A stretch of 64,000 nt of DNA from Sulfurimonas sp. C5. Lineage in GTDB: Bacteria > Campylobacterota > Campylobacteria > Campylobacterales > Sulfurimonadaceae. The notes under the pieces are model-generated. The model made no database searches and was not told the DNA's origin. It saw only the letters and a program-made list of their open reading frames with translations. The position numbers and the translations under genes were made by a program. Shown here piece by piece: positions 37,786 through 49,306 of this stretch (positions are counted from its first letter, which is position 1; the number at the start of each line of letters is the position of its first letter). The DNA lies in NCBI RefSeq assembly GCF_029872055.1, contig NZ_JARXNQ010000001.1, positions 558,001 to 622,000 on the forward strand. The letters are read 5' to 3'.

Positions 37786-37814
37786 TTTTGAGCTCTTAAA
37801 AAAGAGCTTCAAAA
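37786..37814. terminator. Bidirectional hairpin at the arsenic cluster / GGDEF-EAL junction
   Basis: The stem is TTTTG-AGCTCTT (37786-37797) with AAGAGCT-T-CAAAA (37802-37814), one bulged T and loop AAAA. It includes the stop codon of the reverse gene. On the forward strand an AATTTTTTC tract precedes it; on the reverse strand the outer stem itself ends in AAAA. Confidence 0.65.
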
Positions 37815-39631
37815 TCCTCTTGACAAAGCGGTTTATAAAAATAATACCCTTGATAAAGATCACATCCTAATTCTTCTAAGAAATCTTTTTGATACTGTTC
37901 TTCAACACCCTCTGCCACAATAGAAAGATTCATGTTTCTTGAGATCTCAATAATACTTTTAACAAGTAACGCTTGTTGTTCATCATCAAGTCTTGAGATA
38001 AAGGACTTATCGATTTTCAACTCATCTATCGGCATTTCACGAAGATAACTAAGTGATGAATATCCAGTTCCAAAATCATCCATAGAGAACTTAATTCCAA
38101 GTCGTCTAAGGTCATTAATAACATCTACAATCTTTTTCAAGTTTTCAGATGTACTTGTTTCCGTAATTTCGAAGATTACTTGTGTTTTAAAACTGTATAT
38201 GTTGTATCTGTCAAATAGCTTTTCAACCATATCAACAAAACTTTTATCTAAAAACTGTCTCATACTGATATTGATAGAAAGCTGTCTCAGTTTTATACCG
38301 CTGCGATCCCATTTTACCAATGTCTGTAATGCACGTTCAAGTATATATTCACCTAATTCAAGAATATATCCCGTATTTTCAGCTATCGGAATAAATACAT
38401 CGGGTGATATTAGTCCCAGTTTTTCATTATGCCAGCGAGCAAGTACTTCACAACCAACTACTTGACCTTTTACGTTTAATTGTGGCTGATACTGTAATCT
38501 AACTTCATTTTTATCAACTGCAAAGTGTAGATTTCTTTCTATTTCAAGTTTTTGTTCAATAAGTTTACAAAGTTCATCATTAAAGATAAGTATGCCGTCT
38601 CTGCCGTTACTTTTTGCTTCATACATGGCAATATCCGCTTCTTTTAAAAACTCATTTGCCTGAAGCTTAGGATTGTTAATAATACTAATACCAATACTTG
38701 AACTGATGAACAGATGATTACCTTCAATGTTATAGGAATACTTGATCTCATCTAAAAGTTCTTGTGAAAACTCTTGTGCATCTTCGAGACAACTCTCATT
38801 TGTATCAAATCCTTTGGAGAGAATACAAAATTCATCTCCTCCTAAACGGGCTACAAAATGTTCACCTTTTTTTGCCAACTTTGTCATACGTTGGGAAACT
38901 TCGATTAATAGCTGGTCTCCTACATCATGACCTAAAGTATCGTTGATAGTTTTAAAATGGTCAAGATCAATAAGCAGCAGATATGTAAATCTATCACGAT
39001 TTTCTCTAACTGAACTATCAAGCATCTCAATAAAATATCTTCTATTTCCCAAACCTGTTAAATAGTCGTGATACGCTTGAAACCTACTCTTTGTAAGGTA
39101 TTCATGCGTATTTTTAGCTGCATAAAGCAATACTAAACTAAGTACTACGGTAAAAAAAGCAAGAATATCACTGTATACAGAACCAACCATTAATAAATAA
39201 ATTGTGATTGGTAACATCAATGAAGAAACGGTTGAAATTACCAGCTTCTTTTGAGATGCTAAAATCGTTGCAGCCACCACTGTACAACCTAGCTGTGTAG
39301 CAATAGCCATATAATGCATGTCTATATTGTTATGCATAACATAATAAACAAACATTATAGTCCAAAGAGAAAAGTACACAAACATAAAATAACTTACTTT
39401 TGTCAGCCACTTTTCTTGTAATTCTAGAGTGTCACAATGTTTAAATCGTATATACAGTTGATATCCATAAATTGATACCAGAAGTATTATAAAAAACCAC
39501 AATAGTTCTATAACCATATTGGTATAAAGGTACCCCGTAATAAGATAACCGGGAGATGTACCTACCAATAAAGCTATAACAACTAAAATTTGACGATGCA
39601 TAAATTTATAAAAACTTATATTATCATTCAT
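37796..39631 (-). CDS. Membrane GGDEF-EAL c-di-GMP turnover protein
   Basis: 611 residues. About six membrane helices occupy residues 10-170. GGDEF domain spans about 185-350, with intact RLGGDEF and no RxxD inhibitory site five residues before it. EAL domain covers about 365-611, with EVLARW, INISMRQF, FEITETS, MDDFGTGYSSL, LKIDKSFI, AEGVEE and LYQGYYF, so all catalytic and metal residues are present. It may both make and hydrolyse c-di-GMP, with the phosphodiesterase clearly competent. The membrane part has no recognised sensor. It is divergent from the methyltransferase gene and monocistronic. Confidence 0.92.
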   Translation of the reverse strand: MNDNISFYKFMHRQILVVIALLVGTSPGYLITGYLYTNMVIELLWFFIILLVSIYGYQLYIRFKHCDTLELQEKWLTKVSYFMFVYFSLWTIMFVYYVMHNNIDMHYMAIATQLGCTVVAATILASQKKLVISTVSSLMLPITIYLLMVGSVYSDILAFFTVVLSLVLLYAAKNTHEYLTKSRFQAYHDYLTGLGNRRYFIEMLDSSVRENRDRFTYLLLIDLDHFKTINDTLGHDVGDQLLIEVSQRMTKLAKKGEHFVARLGGDEFCILSKGFDTNESCLEDAQEFSQELLDEIKYSYNIEGNHLFISSSIGISIINNPKLQANEFLKEADIAMYEAKSNGRDGILIFNDELCKLIEQKLEIERNLHFAVDKNEVRLQYQPQLNVKGQVVGCEVLARWHNEKLGLISPDVFIPIAENTGYILELGEYILERALQTLVKWDRSGIKLRQLSINISMRQFLDKSFVDMVEKLFDRYNIYSFKTQVIFEITETSTSENLKKIVDVINDLRRLGIKFSMDDFGTGYSSLSYLREMPIDELKIDKSFISRLDDEQQALLVKSIIEISRNMNLSIVAEGVEEQYQKDFLEELGCDLYQGYYFYKPLCQEDFEALF

Positions 39632-40629: not shown

Positions 40630-41733
40630 GTGAAAAGTATTTTGTTTTTTTCAGTTTTATTAACTCTGTTTTTTTCTTTTCATGCCCTTTTTTACTTACG
40701 GGTCATACGCAAACTGCTCATAAGTACATCTATAAAACGATGGTTGACATTTTTTCTGCTTCTGAATTTTGCACTCAATCTTTCTTATGGACTCATTAGA
40801 TATAGTGACCTGCTTCCCTACAATCTACTATATCTAAGTTCAACTTCAATAGGTATCTCTTTTGTCCTACTGCTTTACCTTATTCTTCATGAGATACTCC
40901 ATCTGTTTCATAAGACACTTAAACATGTGGAGTTATCAAAACGCAACTTTATTAAAAAAACGGGGGACGGTGCACTGATGGCACTTGCTACTTCATATGT
41001 GACAGCAGGGGTATATGAAGGAAGTAAGGAACCTGTCATCAACGTTGTTAAAGCCAAGCTATTCAATTTTTCAATTGTTCAAATCAGTGATCTGCATATC
41101 GGTGGACTCATCGATCAAAAATATGTACAAGAGAGTGTTATGAAGATAAATTCTCTGCATCCCGATCTTGTAATGATAACCGGTGATCTCATTGATACGG
41201 AGATTAATACTATTGCTCCAGCAATCTTAGAACTCAATCATATAAATGCAAAATACGGCATCTATATGGTTCTTGGGAATCATGAATATTTCCATAATCC
41301 TTTAGAAGTTATAGAATTTATAAAAACAAAAACAAAAATCACAATTCTTTTAAATGATTCAATCACTATTGATAAGTTAAAAGTAAATATTGTTGGTGTG
41401 AATGATCTCTTTGGTTATCGTACAGGTATCTTAGAACCAAATTTTTATCAAGCATTCTCATCTATCAATAAAAACTACCCTACTATCCTACTTTCTCACC
41501 AACCGAAATCTATAGAGTATTTAAACGGTTTTAAACCCGCGCTTATCTTGAGTGGACATACTCACGGCGGACAGCTATGGCCGTTTAACCATCTTGTAAT
41601 GCTGCAGCAACCATATCTCAAAGGTCTGCATACGCTCAATTACGGTGGAAAAATTTACGTCAATTCAGGTATAGGTTTTTGGGGACCGCCTATGCGTCTT
41701 GGATCACAAGCTGAAATTGCATATATAATTTAG
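40630..41733 (+). CDS. Membrane-anchored metallophosphoesterase (YaeI/YkuE type)
   Basis: 367 residues. Three or four N-terminal membrane helices (residues 1-95) are followed by the calcineurin-like domain with all five motifs: ISDLHIGG, TGDLID, GNHEY, LSHQP and GHTHGGQLWP. YaeI-like members hydrolyse lipid pyrophosphates or UDP-linked precursors; the substrate here is unknown. The start is GTG (40630). The stop overlaps the stop of the facing diguanylate cyclase gene by 4 bases. Confidence 0.88.
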   Translation: MKSILFFSVLLTLFFSFHALFYLRVIRKLLISTSIKRWLTFFLLLNFALNLSYGLIRYSDLLPYNLLYLSSTSIGISFVLLLYLILHEILHLFHKTLKHVELSKRNFIKKTGDGALMALATSYVTAGVYEGSKEPVINVVKAKLFNFSIVQISDLHIGGLIDQKYVQESVMKINSLHPDLVMITGDLIDTEINTIAPAILELNHINAKYGIYMVLGNHEYFHNPLEVIEFIKTKTKITILLNDSITIDKLKVNIVGVNDLFGYRTGILEPNFYQAFSSINKNYPTILLSHQPKSIEYLNGFKPALILSGHTHGGQLWPFNHLVMLQQPYLKGLHTLNYGGKIYVNSGIGFWGPPMRLGSQAEIAYII

Positions 41734-41735
41734 CT
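41709..41735. terminator. Hairpin overlapping the ends of two convergent genes
   Basis: AGCT-G-AAATT (41709-41718) pairs with AATTT-AGCT (41727-41735), with one bulged G and loop GCATATAT, followed by TTT forward. It spans both stop codons. It is AT-rich and weaker than the other junction hairpins. Confidence 0.45.
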
Positions 41736-44162
41736 TTTCACGCAATCTCGTCCACTGTTTTTTGCTCGATAGAGAGCTTCATCCGACTCTCTGAGTAACT
41801 GAGTAAAAGTTTTATGTTTTTGTAACTCTGATATACCTATACTCACAGTAAATGAAATGCTTTGCCCTTCATTGTTTTTATATTGTAAGGTTCTTACCTC
41901 TTTTAAAATTTTTTCAGAAAATGCAAGTGCACCTTCATGAGTAGTATTTTGCAAGCATATTACAAACTCTTCACCGCCTATACGACCGAAGATATCACTC
42001 TCTCTTAAAAGTGTATTGATTTTATTAGAAAAAAGTTTTAATACTGCATCCCCTGTCTGATGACCATAAGTATCATTGACCTCTTTAAAATGGTCTATAT
42101 CTAGAGAAAGAATTTGTAGAGGAGTCTCATTGCGTTTAGCTACTTTAAACATCTGTTCTGCCAGTTCCATAAAATAGCCACGGTTGTGTATCCCGGTTAG
42201 AGAATCTTTATGTGCCAGGTCTTGTAGTTTTTCATTCGCTTTAAATAACGCTTGTGTTCTTTCATGAACCTTTTGGTCAAGTTCAAGATTTACTTTTCTG
42301 ATATGTAAGAATTGAATAATACCTACGATAATTATAGCGACCAAAGCATATATCAAAAGAGCATACTTTTTCAAAACATCCATAATGCTTATATCAACAT
42401 GCTCATAAGGTGGCAATTGCAGCTTTTTAAGTACTTCATGTACTGATGAATAATCCAGAGGAACAGTCCAGCCGCTAATATCACATGCTATTGCTTCAGG
42501 AGAGTTTTCAGGCATTTTTATAAGAGCACTCATAACCTCTTTTGCAACATTTTCAGGTACATGTTTTAACTTTGCAAACGGCCATTCAGGGTATAACTTT
42601 GTCGAGACCATGTAAGGGAAATCTTGATAATGTAAGGGATGTAAGACTCTAACGTTATCTAGATTGATCTGCTTTTCCATTGCCATATGTTCCAAGGTAT
42701 CACTTCGTACAGTTCCAACATCTGCATTACCATCTAAAACAGCATAAACTACTGCATCGTGGGTATTGTAAAACTTCAACTTGATATCATCTATCTTCAT
42801 GCCTGCATCATGTAAAAGTTCATACGCCATGACCCAACCGCCAAAAGAGTCTTTATTTACAGCTGCAAATCTTTTTCCTTTTATTTTGTCAATCGTATTT
42901 ATTTTAGAATCTTTTGTTGTAAAGATGACACTTCCAAAATAGTTATAAGGGTTTCCGTGTGTACCCCTGTTTGTCAAAGTAGCGATTCTGGAAATACCGT
43001 ACTTATTTTCAAACTGCACATAATTCACTGTATTTATAAGTAAAAAATCGATACTTTTATTTTCCAAATGTTCTTGCATATCACTAAAAGAGAGTGGATG
43101 GATATTGACATAATAGTTTTCTAAATTACGGTTTAAATAAGTAGCCAAGGGCTGCCATCTTTTTAAAGTTTTTTTACCCCCTCTTTTTGCCAAGACACCT
43201 ATATTTAAGTGTTTCTTGTTATATCCCATAGGGTCAATATATGGTGTAAAGTCAAATTTTTCTTTGAACAGACCTGTTACTCTGTACCAATTGATAATTT
43301 TATCAATCTGATCCATACTGATATTTCCGATATTACCGTTTTCATCGAGTGCAAGTTTTTTAAGTACCTTACCTTCATAAATAAGACTTTTTATAGATTT
43401 ATGTTGTGAATTGTATTTGTCATAAATTATTTTTGCAGTTTCTTCAATATGTTCAAAAGCCCACTTCCAACCTTCAATGGAAGCTTTATAGAAAGCTTCC
43501 ACACGCTCTGGATGGTTTTTTAGTTCCTCTTCAGACGTAAAAAGAATATCTTCATAAAAATCAAAACCGTAATCTCTTGGATCAAATATTTTGTATGGTA
43601 TTTTTGCACGTTCTAAAAAAAATGGTTCATTAGAAAGATAGCAGGCCATAGCATCTGTTTTTCCGTTTATTAAGTCCTGTAAGTTAAAACTGTGCTGTTG
43701 GAAATGAATATCTTTATACAACAAGCCCTTTGAAAGCAGCATCGCTTTAATTGTAGCACCGCTGGCTACATCATTAGTGATCATAATTTTTTTATTGTTA
43801 AGATCTTGAAGATTTTTTATTTTAGGATTTGTACTAATGAGTACCGAAGGTGAGTGTTGAAAGATAGCACCTAAAAGTACAATAGGACTACCCTCAGCCC
43901 GGTTGACCAATAAGGTAGAACGCCCTATCCCATATTCTGCTTTTTTTGTGACAACCTCTTTAACCACATTAGTACGAGGTGTCATCTCTTTTATTGTTAC
44001 ATCTAAACCGGCTGCATCATAATATCCCTGTTCCTTAGCGACATAATAACCTGCAAATTGAAACTGATGCAACCACTCCAATTGTAAAGAGATTTTTTCT
44101 TTTGCTCCCAATAGAGAGCTTGAAACCGATAATATTATTAAAAATATTAATACTATTCTCAT
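41730..44162 (-). CDS. Diguanylate cyclase with two tandem periplasmic solute-binding domains
   Basis: 810 residues. A signal peptide (1-19) is followed by an NMT1/THI5-like (SsuA-type) binding domain at about 22-310 (LQLEWLHQFQFAGYYVAKEQGYY). A PhnD-like phosphonate-binding domain follows at about 318-570 (LNIGVLAKRG, FGGWVMAYELLHDAG). Then come one membrane helix (about 595-613), a coiled coil, and a GGDEF domain (about 645-810) with active GRIGGEEF and an intact RESD inhibitory site five residues earlier. A periplasmic ligand should therefore set c-di-GMP synthesis. Ligands could be pyrimidine-, sulfonate- or phosphonate-like, which is family inference only. Confidence 0.9.
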   Translation of the reverse strand: MRIVLIFLIILSVSSSLLGAKEKISLQLEWLHQFQFAGYYVAKEQGYYDAAGLDVTIKEMTPRTNVVKEVVTKKAEYGIGRSTLLVNRAEGSPIVLLGAIFQHSPSVLISTNPKIKNLQDLNNKKIMITNDVASGATIKAMLLSKGLLYKDIHFQQHSFNLQDLINGKTDAMACYLSNEPFFLERAKIPYKIFDPRDYGFDFYEDILFTSEEELKNHPERVEAFYKASIEGWKWAFEHIEETAKIIYDKYNSQHKSIKSLIYEGKVLKKLALDENGNIGNISMDQIDKIINWYRVTGLFKEKFDFTPYIDPMGYNKKHLNIGVLAKRGGKKTLKRWQPLATYLNRNLENYYVNIHPLSFSDMQEHLENKSIDFLLINTVNYVQFENKYGISRIATLTNRGTHGNPYNYFGSVIFTTKDSKINTIDKIKGKRFAAVNKDSFGGWVMAYELLHDAGMKIDDIKLKFYNTHDAVVYAVLDGNADVGTVRSDTLEHMAMEKQINLDNVRVLHPLHYQDFPYMVSTKLYPEWPFAKLKHVPENVAKEVMSALIKMPENSPEAIACDISGWTVPLDYSSVHEVLKKLQLPPYEHVDISIMDVLKKYALLIYALVAIIIVGIIQFLHIRKVNLELDQKVHERTQALFKANEKLQDLAHKDSLTGIHNRGYFMELAEQMFKVAKRNETPLQILSLDIDHFKEVNDTYGHQTGDAVLKLFSNKINTLLRESDIFGRIGGEEFVICLQNTTHEGALAFSEKILKEVRTLQYKNNEGQSISFTVSIGISELQKHKTFTQLLRESDEALYRAKNSGRDCVKS

Positions 44163-44226
44163 ATATCAATAGTAGCATAATTTTTCTAAAAAGCGTACAA
44201 CTTAGATAAGTTAAGAAAAATAGGCG

Positions 44227-44264: not shown

Positions 44265-45665
44265 ATGGCAATAGTAAGATCGTACGGTGCAACCAAAGAG
44301 GTTACAGGCTCATGCCATGTACTTGAAGTAGAAGATGTCAAGATAATGATAGACTGCGGTATGTTCCAAGGGGAAGAGGAGGAAAAAAATAAAGAAGCGT
44401 TTTACTTTGAACCTTCAACAATAGACTATATATTAATCACCCATGCCCATCTCGATCATATAGGACGTATTCCAAAACTTGTCAAAGAGGGATTTACCGG
44501 AAAAATATATGCAACTTCTGCCACGATGGAGTTAGCTGAGATCATACTAATGGACAGTGCAAAAATAATGAGTGAAGATTTTCAAACACGCTATAGAAAA
44601 GCTCAACGTAGGGGTCAAAGTAAAAGAATTGAAAAGCCTTTGTATGATCCTATAAATGTTGAAGAGACATTTGACATGATCGAGTGGGTAAATCCAGAAT
44701 ATAACCAATACTACGATCTGTGTGAAGGGATCAGTTTTGTGTACCGTAATGCCGGTCATATTTTAGGTTCTGCTTTTATAGAGATCTCTTATATGGATAA
44801 CAACGACTCTCATACTATAGTTTTTTCTGGAGATATCGGTAATAATAATGACTTAGTACTCCCCCACTTGGCAAAGTGTGAAAAAGCAGACTGCCTGTAT
44901 GTTGAAACGACATATGGGGAAAGAAATCATCAGCCTATAGATGCAACAATAAAAGAGTTTAAAGAGACTCTTTTAGCAACTTTGGACAGAGGCGGAAATG
45001 TTTTAATTCCATCTTTTGCATTAGAACGTACTCAAGAGCTTTTATGTATTTTAAGAGATATGTATGAAAAAGGGGAACTGCCAAAATGTAAAGTCTTTTT
45101 GGATTCACCGATGGCTACACGTGCTACACAGGTATATAAACAATACGCCAGAGAGCTCATACCTAAGTGTCAGGACAATATTAAAGAAAACGGCAGTGTC
45201 TTTAATTTTGAACTTCTCTCATATACTGAAACTCCTGAAGCATCAAAAAGCATCAATGACATTAAAAGCCGTGCAATTATAATCGCCGGTGCGGGTATGT
45301 GTAACGGGGGAAGAATTGTTCACCACTTTAAACACAGAATTTGGGATAAGAACAATGCGGTTATTTTTGTAGGTTTTCAAGCCGAAAATACTCTCGGGCG
45401 TGAGATAGTTGACGGAGCGCAATGGATCAATGTTCTAGGGGAAGACATTATCGTACAAGCATCGATCCATACCATAAACGGCTTTTCAGCCCATGCTGAC
45501 AGAGACGGCATTTTAGAATGGATTGCCGATATCAAAGGTTTGAAAAAAGTGATCTTAGTGCATGGAGAGATAGAGAGTCAAAACGCTTTTAAAGAGATTC
45601 TCAAAGAGAAGCTAGGACTAGACTCTCACATCGTTTCTTTTAAAGAGAAGGTTTTGCTTGATTAA
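44265..45665 (+). CDS. Metallo-beta-lactamase/beta-CASP RNA-processing exonuclease-like protein
   Basis: 466 residues. The zinc-binding HAHLDHIGRIP motif lies in the MBL part, with GHILGSAFIEI and FSGDIGN. The beta-CASP insertion follows (SFALERTQELL, DSPMATRATQVY), and the C-terminal RNA-specificity motif includes INGFSAHADRDGILEW and VHGEIESQ. It belongs to the Ysh1/CPSF73-like bacterial group, distinct from RNase J. The expected activity is RNA endo- or exonucleolytic cleavage in the cytoplasm. Its stop overlaps the facing ygiQ stop by 4 bases. Confidence 0.9.
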   Translation: MAIVRSYGATKEVTGSCHVLEVEDVKIMIDCGMFQGEEEEKNKEAFYFEPSTIDYILITHAHLDHIGRIPKLVKEGFTGKIYATSATMELAEIILMDSAKIMSEDFQTRYRKAQRRGQSKRIEKPLYDPINVEETFDMIEWVNPEYNQYYDLCEGISFVYRNAGHILGSAFIEISYMDNNDSHTIVFSGDIGNNNDLVLPHLAKCEKADCLYVETTYGERNHQPIDATIKEFKETLLATLDRGGNVLIPSFALERTQELLCILRDMYEKGELPKCKVFLDSPMATRATQVYKQYARELIPKCQDNIKENGSVFNFELLSYTETPEASKSINDIKSRAIIIAGAGMCNGGRIVHHFKHRIWDKNNAVIFVGFQAENTLGREIVDGAQWINVLGEDIIVQASIHTINGFSAHADRDGILEWIADIKGLKKVILVHGEIESQNAFKEILKEKLGLDSHIVSFKEKVLLD

Positions 45666-45676
45666 GAAGCAAAACC
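45650..45676. terminator. Perfect 10-bp hairpin across two overlapping stop codons
   Basis: GGTTTTGCTT (45650-45659) and AAGCAAAACC (45667-45676) are exact complements around loop GATTAAG. The stop codons of both facing genes lie in the loop. There is no long T tract after the stem on either strand. Confidence 0.6.
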
Positions 45677-47437
45677 CGATTTAAAGTTATCTTTTTTTAT
45701 TACGATCTCTTTTTGTTTCTCTTTTCTTCTTGTGTCTTTCTCTACAAAGATTTTTTTGCGAGTTACAGGATCCATTTCCGTATAATACATCACTGCCGAG
45801 TAAGTTCCAGGAGTTGGAGTAAATACCTGAGCTTGTTCAGGATTCATTTGCAATTCATCTGTAGTAAAACGTTTTAATTCATGCATATCTTTTTCTGTAC
45901 AACCCGGATGCGCAGCAATAAGATAGTAAGTTAAGAACTGCTTTTTCCCCTCTTCTTTATTTAGTTTGTCGTACATTTTTTTAAAGTCGATCAGCTCTTG
46001 TTTCCCAGGTTTTCCCATAAGTTCAAGTACACGTTGATCCGTATGTTCAGGTGCTACTTTCATCTGTCCTGAGATATGGTGTTTTACCATCTCTTTTAAG
46101 TAGCTGTAACCGTGTTTTTTATCTGCATTGATCAGATCATAACGTACACCCGAAGCGACAAATGCTTTTCTAACACCCTCAACTTCACGTACCTGACGTA
46201 AAAGATTGATGTTTCTGCTGTGGTCTACTTTCATAGAACTACACAGATGGTTAGCATCCACACATCTTTGATGTGCACACGTTCCGAGTTTTAGCTTTTT
46301 GTTACACTCGTAGCCGTACATATTCGCCGTAGGACCTCCGACATCTGAGATGATCCCTTTGTAGTCTTTGTACTTGTTGAAGTCTTTTGCTTCAGCCAGA
46401 ATACTCTCTTCTGAACGTGTTCTGATCGTACGTCCCTGATGCACGCCAATTGCACAGAAGTTACACTCACCCCAACAGCCGTGGTGAGTCATGATCGAGA
46501 ACTTAATTGTCTCAAGACATTTTACTTTTCCATCTTTTTTATGATAAGGGTGTAATTCTCTTGTAAATGGAAGCTTTGCATTTGCATCCATCTCCTCTTC
46601 GTTTAGGTAATCACATGGAGGATTTTGGATCAGATATCTGCCGTCCACCTCTTCACACAGTCCGTTTGCAGAGATCGGGTCATTATTGTCATAAAAATGA
46701 TCGAACATATCGATATATTTCTCTTTATCATCCAAACACTCTTGGTGTGATGGAAGTTGAATAAATTCATGCTTCGGCTCTTTAGAGATGTAACAAATCC
46801 CTCTGATATCTTTGTAGTCACGTCCTTCAGCAATAGCACGTGTCAGTTGTTCAATCGCAATTTCACCCATTCCATAAACCAATACATCTGCTTTAGAATC
46901 AAATAAAACAGGTTTTTTGAGCTTATTTTGCCAGTAGTCATAATGAGTGATACGACGCAGTGAAGCTTCTATACCTCCAAGTACGACGGGAACAGTATTT
47001 TTAAAATAACGTCTAATCAGGTTTGTATAGACTAAAACTGCACGATCGGGACGTTTGTTGTTTACACCGCCTGGAGTATAGTCATCCGAGTTACGGAACT
47101 TCTTCGTCGCCGTGTAGTTTGACACCATTGAGTCAACACTACCACCGCTTACACCCCAGTAAAGTTTAGGCTCGCCGAGACGCTTTATATCTATATCGCT
47201 GTTGATATCAGGTTGACCGATAATCCCTACACGATACCCCATACGCTCTAACATACGTCCAACCATAGCTACACCGATAAACGAAGAGTCTATGTACGCA
47301 TCACCGCTTACAAGGATCACATCACACTGATCCCATCCACGAGCTTCCATCTCTTGGCGTGTTGTAGGTAAGAAATCTTTCTCTTTAAATGTTACGGTAT
47401 CTCTATTTGGAGTATGTTTTTTATTGCGTCTGCTCAA
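45662..47437 (-). CDS. YgiQ-family radical SAM protein
   Basis: 591 residues. The N-terminal YgiQ-specific domain starts with FLPTTRQEMEARGWDQCDVILVSGDAYIDSS. The radical SAM cluster motif HHGCWGECNFCAIGVHQG (CxxxCxxC) is near residue 318. The C-terminal domain contains QVFTPTPGTYSAVMYYT. YgiQ is widely conserved, but its reaction is not established. The length is normal. It is transcribed alone or with the antiporter gene 90 bases upstream. Confidence 0.93.
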   Translation of the reverse strand: MSRRNKKHTPNRDTVTFKEKDFLPTTRQEMEARGWDQCDVILVSGDAYIDSSFIGVAMVGRMLERMGYRVGIIGQPDINSDIDIKRLGEPKLYWGVSGGSVDSMVSNYTATKKFRNSDDYTPGGVNNKRPDRAVLVYTNLIRRYFKNTVPVVLGGIEASLRRITHYDYWQNKLKKPVLFDSKADVLVYGMGEIAIEQLTRAIAEGRDYKDIRGICYISKEPKHEFIQLPSHQECLDDKEKYIDMFDHFYDNNDPISANGLCEEVDGRYLIQNPPCDYLNEEEMDANAKLPFTRELHPYHKKDGKVKCLETIKFSIMTHHGCWGECNFCAIGVHQGRTIRTRSEESILAEAKDFNKYKDYKGIISDVGGPTANMYGYECNKKLKLGTCAHQRCVDANHLCSSMKVDHSRNINLLRQVREVEGVRKAFVASGVRYDLINADKKHGYSYLKEMVKHHISGQMKVAPEHTDQRVLELMGKPGKQELIDFKKMYDKLNKEEGKKQFLTYYLIAAHPGCTEKDMHELKRFTTDELQMNPEQAQVFTPTPGTYSAVMYYTEMDPVTRKKIFVEKDTRRKEKQKEIVIKKDNFKSGFAS

Positions 47438-47527: not shown

Positions 47528-49306
47528 TTATACCTCGATCTCGATTGTCTGATTGTTTTGAATACTTTTATTGATCGCATCTTTAATCTTTTCAAAAAGC
47601 GTTTCGAGATTATCCGTTTCTCGTAATTCCGTTACACCGAAATAGTATTTGATCTCTTTATCAAGTGTTTGTATAAACTGTTCTACAATCTTCTGTGCCA
47701 ATCTATGTCCACCTCCTAAAGAGGTATTACTTGCCAAAACAATAAAATGCTTTTCTTCAATTTTTCCGAAGTAGTCATTCTGACGAATACTTTGTTGGAT
47801 AATTTCACCTGCTTTTTGTAAAAAATGTTTCTGTTTTTCTTCAGGAAGTGTAGAAAAGTCAAACTGCAAACCTATTACGGAAAGCTCCACCTTATAACGT
47901 TGTACTCTTGCTATCTCACGTACAAGAACCTCTTCAATAAAAATCCGATTATAAGCCTGAGAGATAGGATCTTTTTCCAGTACTTCAACTATATCTTTAG
48001 AAAGAGTGGAAAGCTTTTGATCTTTTGTCCCATCAAGCGACGAATCATTTTCATACAGTTTTGCATATCTCTTAATATGGAACATCAAAGTAAACGTATA
48101 AAGAAATGTGCTAATAAGGACATTACCTAAAACAATAGCGGTAAAAAGCTCATAATATACAAACTCTTTTGGCAAAGAGTGCACCATGATGATAGCCAGT
48201 GCACCTTTCATCCCTGAAAGTGTAAGTGCATATGTCCAATAAAACGGGAGTTTAGAACTAACAACTAAAGCACTTATACTACCAAAACGGATCAAAGTTG
48301 TAACAAGAAATACAATTAAAATCTCGTAGATATATTTATATAAAAGCGACAAATCTATTATATTTGCTATTACAACAAAAACAACCGCATTGGCAAAGAT
48401 TCCTAAAAACATCGCCTCTTTTTTATACTCGCGAAATTCATGTTTGGTGATAGCGGGTATATGTTTAAGTAGCTCAATAAAAGCATCATAGGTTTTTACT
48501 TTATCCGTAATCTCAAATGTTTGGGGATGCAAGCGACTCTCACACTGAACCAAGATTTTAAAGGTTAACACTGAAACTACAATCGATAAAATTCCTGCAA
48601 TATGGAAATGTTCAGCCAATAAAAAAGAACTTATAACAATAAGATAGATAATTAAAAACTGATCAAAAGGGTTACGCAGCATTTTAAGTGCAAAAAAACC
48701 GAAAAAGGCACTTGCCATACCTATAAAACTTGAAAGAAATAAAACTTTTAAGACAGTAACATTAACAGAAAGGACATCAACTGCCCCACCTTGTAAAAGT
48801 GGTAAGGCTATAAAATAGTAAATAATTAAAGCGGTAACGTCGTTAAACAGAGATTCCGATTCAGCATAGATCTTTAAACGCTGCGGCAACGTAAATCTCG
48901 ACATAATGGCACTTACCGTAATGGCATCTGTAGCCATTAACATTGTGTATAGGGCTAGAAGCATTCCTATAGTAAAACCATATTCAGGTAACAAATACGG
49001 TGTTACAAAAACGGCTAGAGCTATAGAGGCAATAACTGCAACTACCGCAAGGTAAAATATCTCTTTTGCATAATTTTTCAACTCTTTAATAGATATATTT
49101 AAAATATCTGGAAGTAAAATAACAGGAAGCATCAAGTAAAGAACCTCATTAAATTCTTGCTTACTGATGGAAAATAGATGAGGAAAATAGATGGAAAGTA
49201 CAAACGCATAAAGGATGGTTGCTAAAGTTGCGGGAACCTTCGTTTTCTCTTCAGTCAAACGTGAAAGCAATATAATCAATAATAATATTGTGATCAATAA
49301 AAGCAT
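47528..49306 (-). CDS. CPA1-type Na+/H+ antiporter with C-terminal degenerate GGDEF domain
   Basis: 592 residues. Residues 1-410 hold about 11-12 membrane helices with CPA1 antiporter motifs ATDAITVSAI (124-133) and ESLFNDVTALI (Asn155-Asp156, ion-binding site). Residues 446-592 are a GGDEF-family fold: DPISQAYNRIFIEEVL start, then RQND (508-511), a five-residue spacer and EEKHF (517-521) exactly where GG(D/E)EF should be. The catalytic loop is lost and the first metal Asp is Gln481, so cyclase activity is not expected, but the RxxD inhibitory-site motif that binds c-di-GMP is kept. Cytoplasmic c-di-GMP or GTP may therefore gate ion exchange (inference). Confidence 0.88.
   Translation of the reverse strand: MLLLITILLLIILLSRLTEEKTKVPATLATILYAFVLSIYFPHLFSISKQEFNEVLYLMLPVILLPDILNISIKELKNYAKEIFYLAVVAVIASIALAVFVTPYLLPEYGFTIGMLLALYTMLMATDAITVSAIMSRFTLPQRLKIYAESESLFNDVTALIIYYFIALPLLQGGAVDVLSVNVTVLKVLFLSSFIGMASAFFGFFALKMLRNPFDQFLIIYLIVISSFLLAEHFHIAGILSIVVSVLTFKILVQCESRLHPQTFEITDKVKTYDAFIELLKHIPAITKHEFREYKKEAMFLGIFANAVVFVVIANIIDLSLLYKYIYEILIVFLVTTLIRFGSISALVVSSKLPFYWTYALTLSGMKGALAIIMVHSLPKEFVYYELFTAIVLGNVLISTFLYTFTLMFHIKRYAKLYENDSSLDGTKDQKLSTLSKDIVEVLEKDPISQAYNRIFIEEVLVREIARVQRYKVELSVIGLQFDFSTLPEEKQKHFLQKAGEIIQQSIRQNDYFGKIEEKHFIVLASNTSLGGGHRLAQKIVEQFIQTLDKEIKYYFGVTELRETDNLETLFEKIKDAINKSIQNNQTIEIEV

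Follow-up and report, generated by a model that had tools for sequence, protein, structure and literature searches.

A CPA1-type antiporter with a degenerate GGDEF domain, a putative c-di-GMP receptor, in Sulfurimonas sp. C5

A gene of Sulfurimonas sp. C5 encodes, on a single chain, a cation/proton antiporter and a C-terminal domain of the GGDEF type with a degenerate catalytic loop. What might such a domain do on an ion transporter? Cyclic di-GMP (c-di-GMP) acts on polysaccharide synthesis, pili, flagella, and transcription. Control of a cation/proton antiporter by a cyclic dinucleotide has been described for c-di-AMP, which regulates CpaA of Staphylococcus aureus via a C-terminal cytosolic domain (PMC5575661). 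In a literature search, from which most subscription journals were outside the scope, we found neither a fusion of a GGDEF domain with an antiporter nor a direct action of c-di-GMP on a Na+/H+ antiporter.

In the present study, we examined this gene, which lies in a stretch of 64,000 nucleotides (hereafter, the window), together with its fused orthologues and the other GGDEF domains of the same genome. We consider it likely that the product works as a homodimer, in which a CPA1 cation/proton antiporter bears at its C-terminus a receptor for c-di-GMP, derived from a GGDEF domain no longer active as an enzyme. The binding of c-di-GMP by the domain, and a resulting change in ion exchange, are well supported by the sequences and the structural models but not shown, as there are no binding or transport data.

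The fusion protein and its distribution

The gene and its main parts are as follows.

47528..49306, minus strand: whole gene of the CPA1 antiporter/pseudo-GGDEF fusion (592 amino acid residues plus stop, ATG start, two Pfam domains)
48086..49279, minus strand: transport half (Na_H_Exchanger), residues 10-407
48923..48934, minus strand: ATDA motif, residues 125-128
48839..48847, minus strand: FND motif, residues 154-156, with Asp156 as the presumed ion-binding residue
47975..48085, minus strand: linker and entry helix, residues 408-444, between the last transmembrane helix and the domain
47531..47974, minus strand: pseudo-GGDEF domain, residues 445-592

The initial annotation, made from the sequence of the window, proposed a CPA1 transport half with intact ATDA and FND motifs, and this proposal was borne out. 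The Pfam model PF00999 (Na_H_Exchanger) matched residues 10-407 with an E value of 7.5e-23 and 81.4 bits against a curated cut-off of 26.2. In an alignment of 22 fused and unfused homologues, A125, T126, and D127 of the first motif and N155-D156 of the second were invariant, as were E149, E151, and the whole of S152-D156. TIGR00831 (a_cpa1) also matched (E 7.3e-23). However, the score of 80.9 bits was below the equivalog cut-off of 279.6 bits for the bacterial family, and the ion specificity is thus open. Judged from the sequence, the transport core is intact and of the CPA1 type; specificity for Na+ or for K+ is not settled, and exchange activity is without an assay. The full-length AlphaFold2 model (mean pLDDT 83.9) resembled plant SOS1 and sea-urchin SLC9C1 first, and then NHE3, NHE1, and archaeal NhaP (PaNhaP and MjNhaP1). 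The best PDB sequence match of the antiporter was likewise SOS1/NHX7. Toward the C-terminal domain, the model contains helices at residues 385-413, 415-425, and 428-444, with low confidence at 428-436.

A survey of relatives for the same fusion, which the initial annotation suggested, yielded 25 distinct fused proteins from Campylobacterota and sulfur-oxidising Gammaproteobacteria; the named relatives include Sulfurimonas and Arcobacter. Searches at the levels of family, order, and genus gave 21 of them, and a scan of genome contigs with an alignment query added four, three of which are gammaproteobacterial (Hydrogenovibrio sp. SC-1, a Piscirickettsiaceae genome, and a Halothiobacillus genome). 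As the 25 proteins come from independent genomes, an assembly artefact can be excluded. Its spread is patchy, with 13 of the 135 genomes of the genus containing it. The family, order, and genus searches also found unfused relatives of about 440 residues, and some genomes (G007, G350, and G351) hold a fused and an unfused copy alike, so that the domain is to be seen as an add-on outside the transport machinery. In a tree of the transport half, all 24 usable fused proteins were monophyletic (support 0.974), and the unfused proteins fell outside. A single fusion event, with no later loss of the domain within the sampled clade, fits these sequence data best, and the fusion was probably spread between the phyla by transfer.

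The catalytic site and the I-site of the domain

The features within the domain are listed below.

47744..47758, minus strand: degenerate catalytic loop EEKHF, residues 517-521
47774..47785, minus strand: RxxD of the I-site, Arg508-Asp511
47690..47692, minus strand: Lys539, third I-site residue
47906..47908, minus strand: Arg467, I-site residue from the partner protomer

PF00990 (GGDEF) matched residues 446-581 (E 1.4e-8, over the curated cut-off), and DPISQAYNR begins at residue 446, in agreement with the GGDEF-type domain first described. The AlphaFold2 model of the domain alone had a mean pLDDT of 89.8 and a pTM of 0.83. Its best VIA-align match was 3ign, a GGDEF crystal structure with c-di-GMP (Z 23.1, rmsd 1.5, 153 residues), and complexes of PleD with c-di-GMP were tied with 3ign within 1 Z. 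The same fold proves no function, yet the modelled likeness supports the mapping of residues onto PleD.

The domain had been called a dead enzyme on account of Gln481 at the position of the first metal-binding Asp and EEKHF in place of the active loop. We found that the loss is family-wide: the catalytic columns vary freely across the 25 orthologues, and, in site rates estimated on a maximum-likelihood tree, columns 481, 483, and 517-520 ranked 100-111 among the 124 domain sites (102-111 for 517-520), that is, among the fastest. In one subclade, the domain is shortened by removal of the stretch between the first strand and the I-site, and the GTP/guanine-binding loop is gone. In the three members tested (L091 from Hydrogenovibrio, L094, and L045), Pfam recognised only the part with the I-site and hairpin (profile positions 62-118). 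By these alignments, the GTP and metal site is destroyed and the domain is not a catalytic diguanylate cyclase. Drift of a pseudogene was rejected, because all 25 orthologues have an uninterrupted reading frame and the site rates are strongly uneven.

In PleD, the I-site consists of R359, D362, and R390 of one GGDEF domain and R313 of the partner (PMC7288161). By ungapped alignment, these residues correspond to R508, D511, K539, and R467 of the fusion protein. The RxxD (RQND) stands exactly five residues ahead of the EEKHF loop, at the I-site spacing, as the initial annotation had it; K539 and R467 are two further I-site residues that it did not name.

How much does an RxxD mean by itself? The genome of Sulfurimonas sp. 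C5 has 57 matches to PF00990 and 24 to the EAL domain, and we extracted and aligned nearly all of its other GGDEF domains. RxxD was present in 37 of the 41 rows with a catalytic-type loop. As nearly all catalytic GGDEF domains of the genome carry the motif, a single sighting is weak evidence, and we discarded the mere presence of RxxD as an argument. This is a caveat to the original inference, the residues of which were right and are kept in the orthologues. Among the rows with a degenerate loop, just 4 of the 16 had RxxD, all four outside GGDEF-EAL proteins. Because the other 12 lost the motif, its retention is not imposed by the fold.

The two active-looking GGDEF proteins that had been noted elsewhere in the window are both real, and one of them lacks RxxD.

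41733-44165, minus strand: NMT1/phosphonate-binding-GGDEF protein, RxxD present
37799-39631, minus strand: GGDEF-EAL protein, K and E at the RxxD positions

The former combines, in one chain, NMT1 and phosphonate-binding domains of the periplasmic-binding-protein kind, followed by a catalytic-looking GGDEF domain.

We then compared the four I-site positions between the 25 fused orthologues and the 39 distinct catalytic-type GGDEF domains that remained after de-duplication, all of them from this single genome. R508 was present in 23 of the orthologues (35 of the 39 catalytic-type domains) and D511 in every orthologue (36/39). K or R at 539 was found in 25/25 orthologues against 26/39 catalytic-type domains, and R467 in 22/25 against 11/39. 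Therefore, the dead domain retains two of the four positions better than the catalytic-type domains do. R508 was replaced by Gly in L044 and by Pro in L069. A lack of RxxD conservation among orthologues had been named beforehand as a refutation of the initial proposal, and the proposal withstood this check. Fisher tests of these counts were significant, with p-values inflated by shared ancestry; since the tests disregard this ancestry, we preferred the site rates as evidence. Among the 124 sites, D511 ranked 2nd, R508 19th, K539 27th, and R467 33rd from the slowest. As inferred from the alignment and these rates, all four PleD-type I-site positions are kept family-wide and are under constraint. 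Y452, G514, D565, and K573 are conserved too, equally to or more than the I-site residues, and part of the conservation of the domain is thus structural.

Putative control of ion exchange and alternative explanations

The tails of SOS1 and NHE3 are autoinhibitory. By analogy with them, we lean slightly toward a ligand-free tail that would inhibit exchange and would be released by c-di-GMP, over the opposite direction. As the antiporter is expected to be dimeric, the two domains would lie side by side under the membrane. Each domain is inferred to bind an intercalated dimer of c-di-GMP by its own R508, D511, and K539, with R467 supplied by the other domain to complete the site. The ligand would then clamp the paired domains together, and the short helical linker may relay the clamping to the last transmembrane helices and so change the rate of exchange. 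The specificity for Na+ and the tie to the switch between motile and sessile life, both part of the initial annotation, remain inference.

The domain could instead be a structural module, or one for dimerisation or docking, that binds no nucleotide, the I-site residues being retained because they help folding, through an Arg-Asp salt bridge, or serve a protein partner. The conservation of Y452, G514, D565, and K573 would fit such a role, and degenerate GGDEF domains of the BcsE type bind a protein partner as well (PMC7439463). However, the degenerate GGDEF domains of the same genome are still recognisable although RxxD is lost in most of them, R467, the residue from the partner protomer, is retained far more often here than in the catalytic domains, and conservation tracks the four I-site positions while the catalytic columns drift. 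We therefore regard a module without a ligand as unlikely. Catalytically dead GGDEF domains can work through localisation or partner recruitment, and the domain might bind c-di-GMP merely as a ligand sink or localisation tag, with transport unchanged. The existence of unfused sister antiporters agrees with this, as it makes the domain dispensable for transport itself. Against it, the domain is joined directly, by a short linker, to the last transmembrane helix and has been retained throughout the sampled clade after the fusion; moreover, the CPA1 relatives SOS1 and SLC9C1 carry regulatory C-terminal domains. A mere sink or tag consequently seems very improbable to us.

We find it scarcely credible that the ligand is GTP or c-di-AMP instead of c-di-GMP, even though GGDEF folds can bind GTP as an allosteric effector. 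The residues of the GTP and metal site are randomised, and GTP sensing was rejected on the loss of the guanine-binding loop in the short subclade. For c-di-AMP, CpaA provides the precedent of an antiporter that is a receptor (PMC5575661), but this ligand was rejected because no DAC domain (c-di-AMP synthase) was found in the genome and no RCK/TrkA_C domain matched the fusion protein in Pfam at E values up to 10.

A c-di-GMP receptor on the antiporter would be a new combination of known parts, as both degenerate GGDEF receptors and a c-di-AMP-regulated antiporter are already known. PelD, PopA, and BcsE likewise have a dead catalytic site and a kept RxxD I-site, and the proven receptors PelD and BcsE are without the P-loop and alpha1 region (PMC7439463), a loss matched by the short subclade of the antiporter fusion. 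Whereas these receptors act on polysaccharide secretion, protein degradation, and cellulose, the one predicted here would act on a cation/proton antiporter that is part of the same polypeptide. CpaA shares with the fusion the antiporter and a C-terminal cytosolic domain for a cyclic dinucleotide (predicted in the fusion), but it uses RCK_C and c-di-AMP in place of a pseudo-GGDEF domain and, as predicted, c-di-GMP. SLC9C1 (sperm NHE) and plant SOS1/NHX7 also join a CPA1-type core to a C-terminal regulatory region; they differ in being eukaryotic and in their far longer tails, which hold domains of the cyclic-nucleotide-binding type. PleD, WspR, and DgcB, which undergo product inhibition at the I-site, resemble the domain of the fusion in fold (Z about 22) and in I-site residues but are catalytically competent, whereas that domain has no GTP or metal site.

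If the control of the antiporter is direct, a biofilm signal would be coupled to pH, sodium, and membrane energetics; until now, such a role has been associated with c-di-AMP. It would also supply a simple receptor in sulfur-oxidising Campylobacterota, which have dozens of cyclases; the usual receptor, PilZ, gave no match in this genome at an E value of 0.001 with the one Pfam model used.

Gene neighbourhood and other degenerate GGDEF proteins

One co-directional gene follows the antiporter gene.

45662..47437, minus strand: YgiQ-type radical SAM gene, downstream (identity from sequence, not from a family search)

The gap between the two genes is about 90 nt and has no terminator-like site, and they are possibly co-transcribed. 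The order ygiQ, antiporter, acyl-CoA ligase, and pyrophosphatase is confined to the two closest relatives (L193 and L201). Two of the gammaproteobacterial genomes, Hydrogenovibrio and the Piscirickettsiaceae genome, have a co-oriented gene about 50 nt ahead of the fused antiporter; in Hydrogenovibrio, this gene encodes a PAS-GGDEF-EAL protein. In G221, the genes directly preceding the antiporter encode a metallo-beta-lactamase-GGDEF and a REC-GGDEF-EAL protein. GGDEF genes beside the orthologues are only modestly commoner than expected in such GGDEF-rich genomes and thus give minor support only. We also observed a metallo-beta-lactamase of the ODP family fused to GGDEF (L205, 6614-8254, minus strand), possibly an oxygen- or NO-linked cyclase, whose gene is the one just upstream of an orthologue of the fused antiporter.

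A parallel fusion was found in the genome of Sulfurimonas sp. C5 itself (C2:62130-64259; L212 / L210). It encodes a protein of 710 residues with acyltransferase and Acetyltransf_5 domains, the layout of a bifunctional ornithine-lipid synthase (OlsF), and a dead-GGDEF tail with RDDD at the I-site spacing. The tail occurs in only a few relatives, and RxxD is present in each of the five fused copies that could be read (this one and four others). In the domain tree, these OlsF-like tails and a PAS-linked pseudo-GGDEF protein grouped with the antiporter tails (support 0.923); since long-branch attraction between fast-evolving domains could give such a grouping, a common origin is a lead only. We raise tentatively, as an idea still more doubtful than not, that a GGDEF domain stripped to its I-site serves as a plug-in c-di-GMP receptor on the antiporter, the OlsF-like synthase, and the PAS protein in a lineage without detectable PilZ. 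If so, c-di-GMP would directly set both ion balance and membrane lipid composition.

Three more dead GGDEF proteins with RxxD in these data are candidate c-di-GMP receptors (L208, C1:153670; L209, C9:20323; and L211, C1:259008), one of which has a transmembrane helix and another a region that looks PAS-like by eye.
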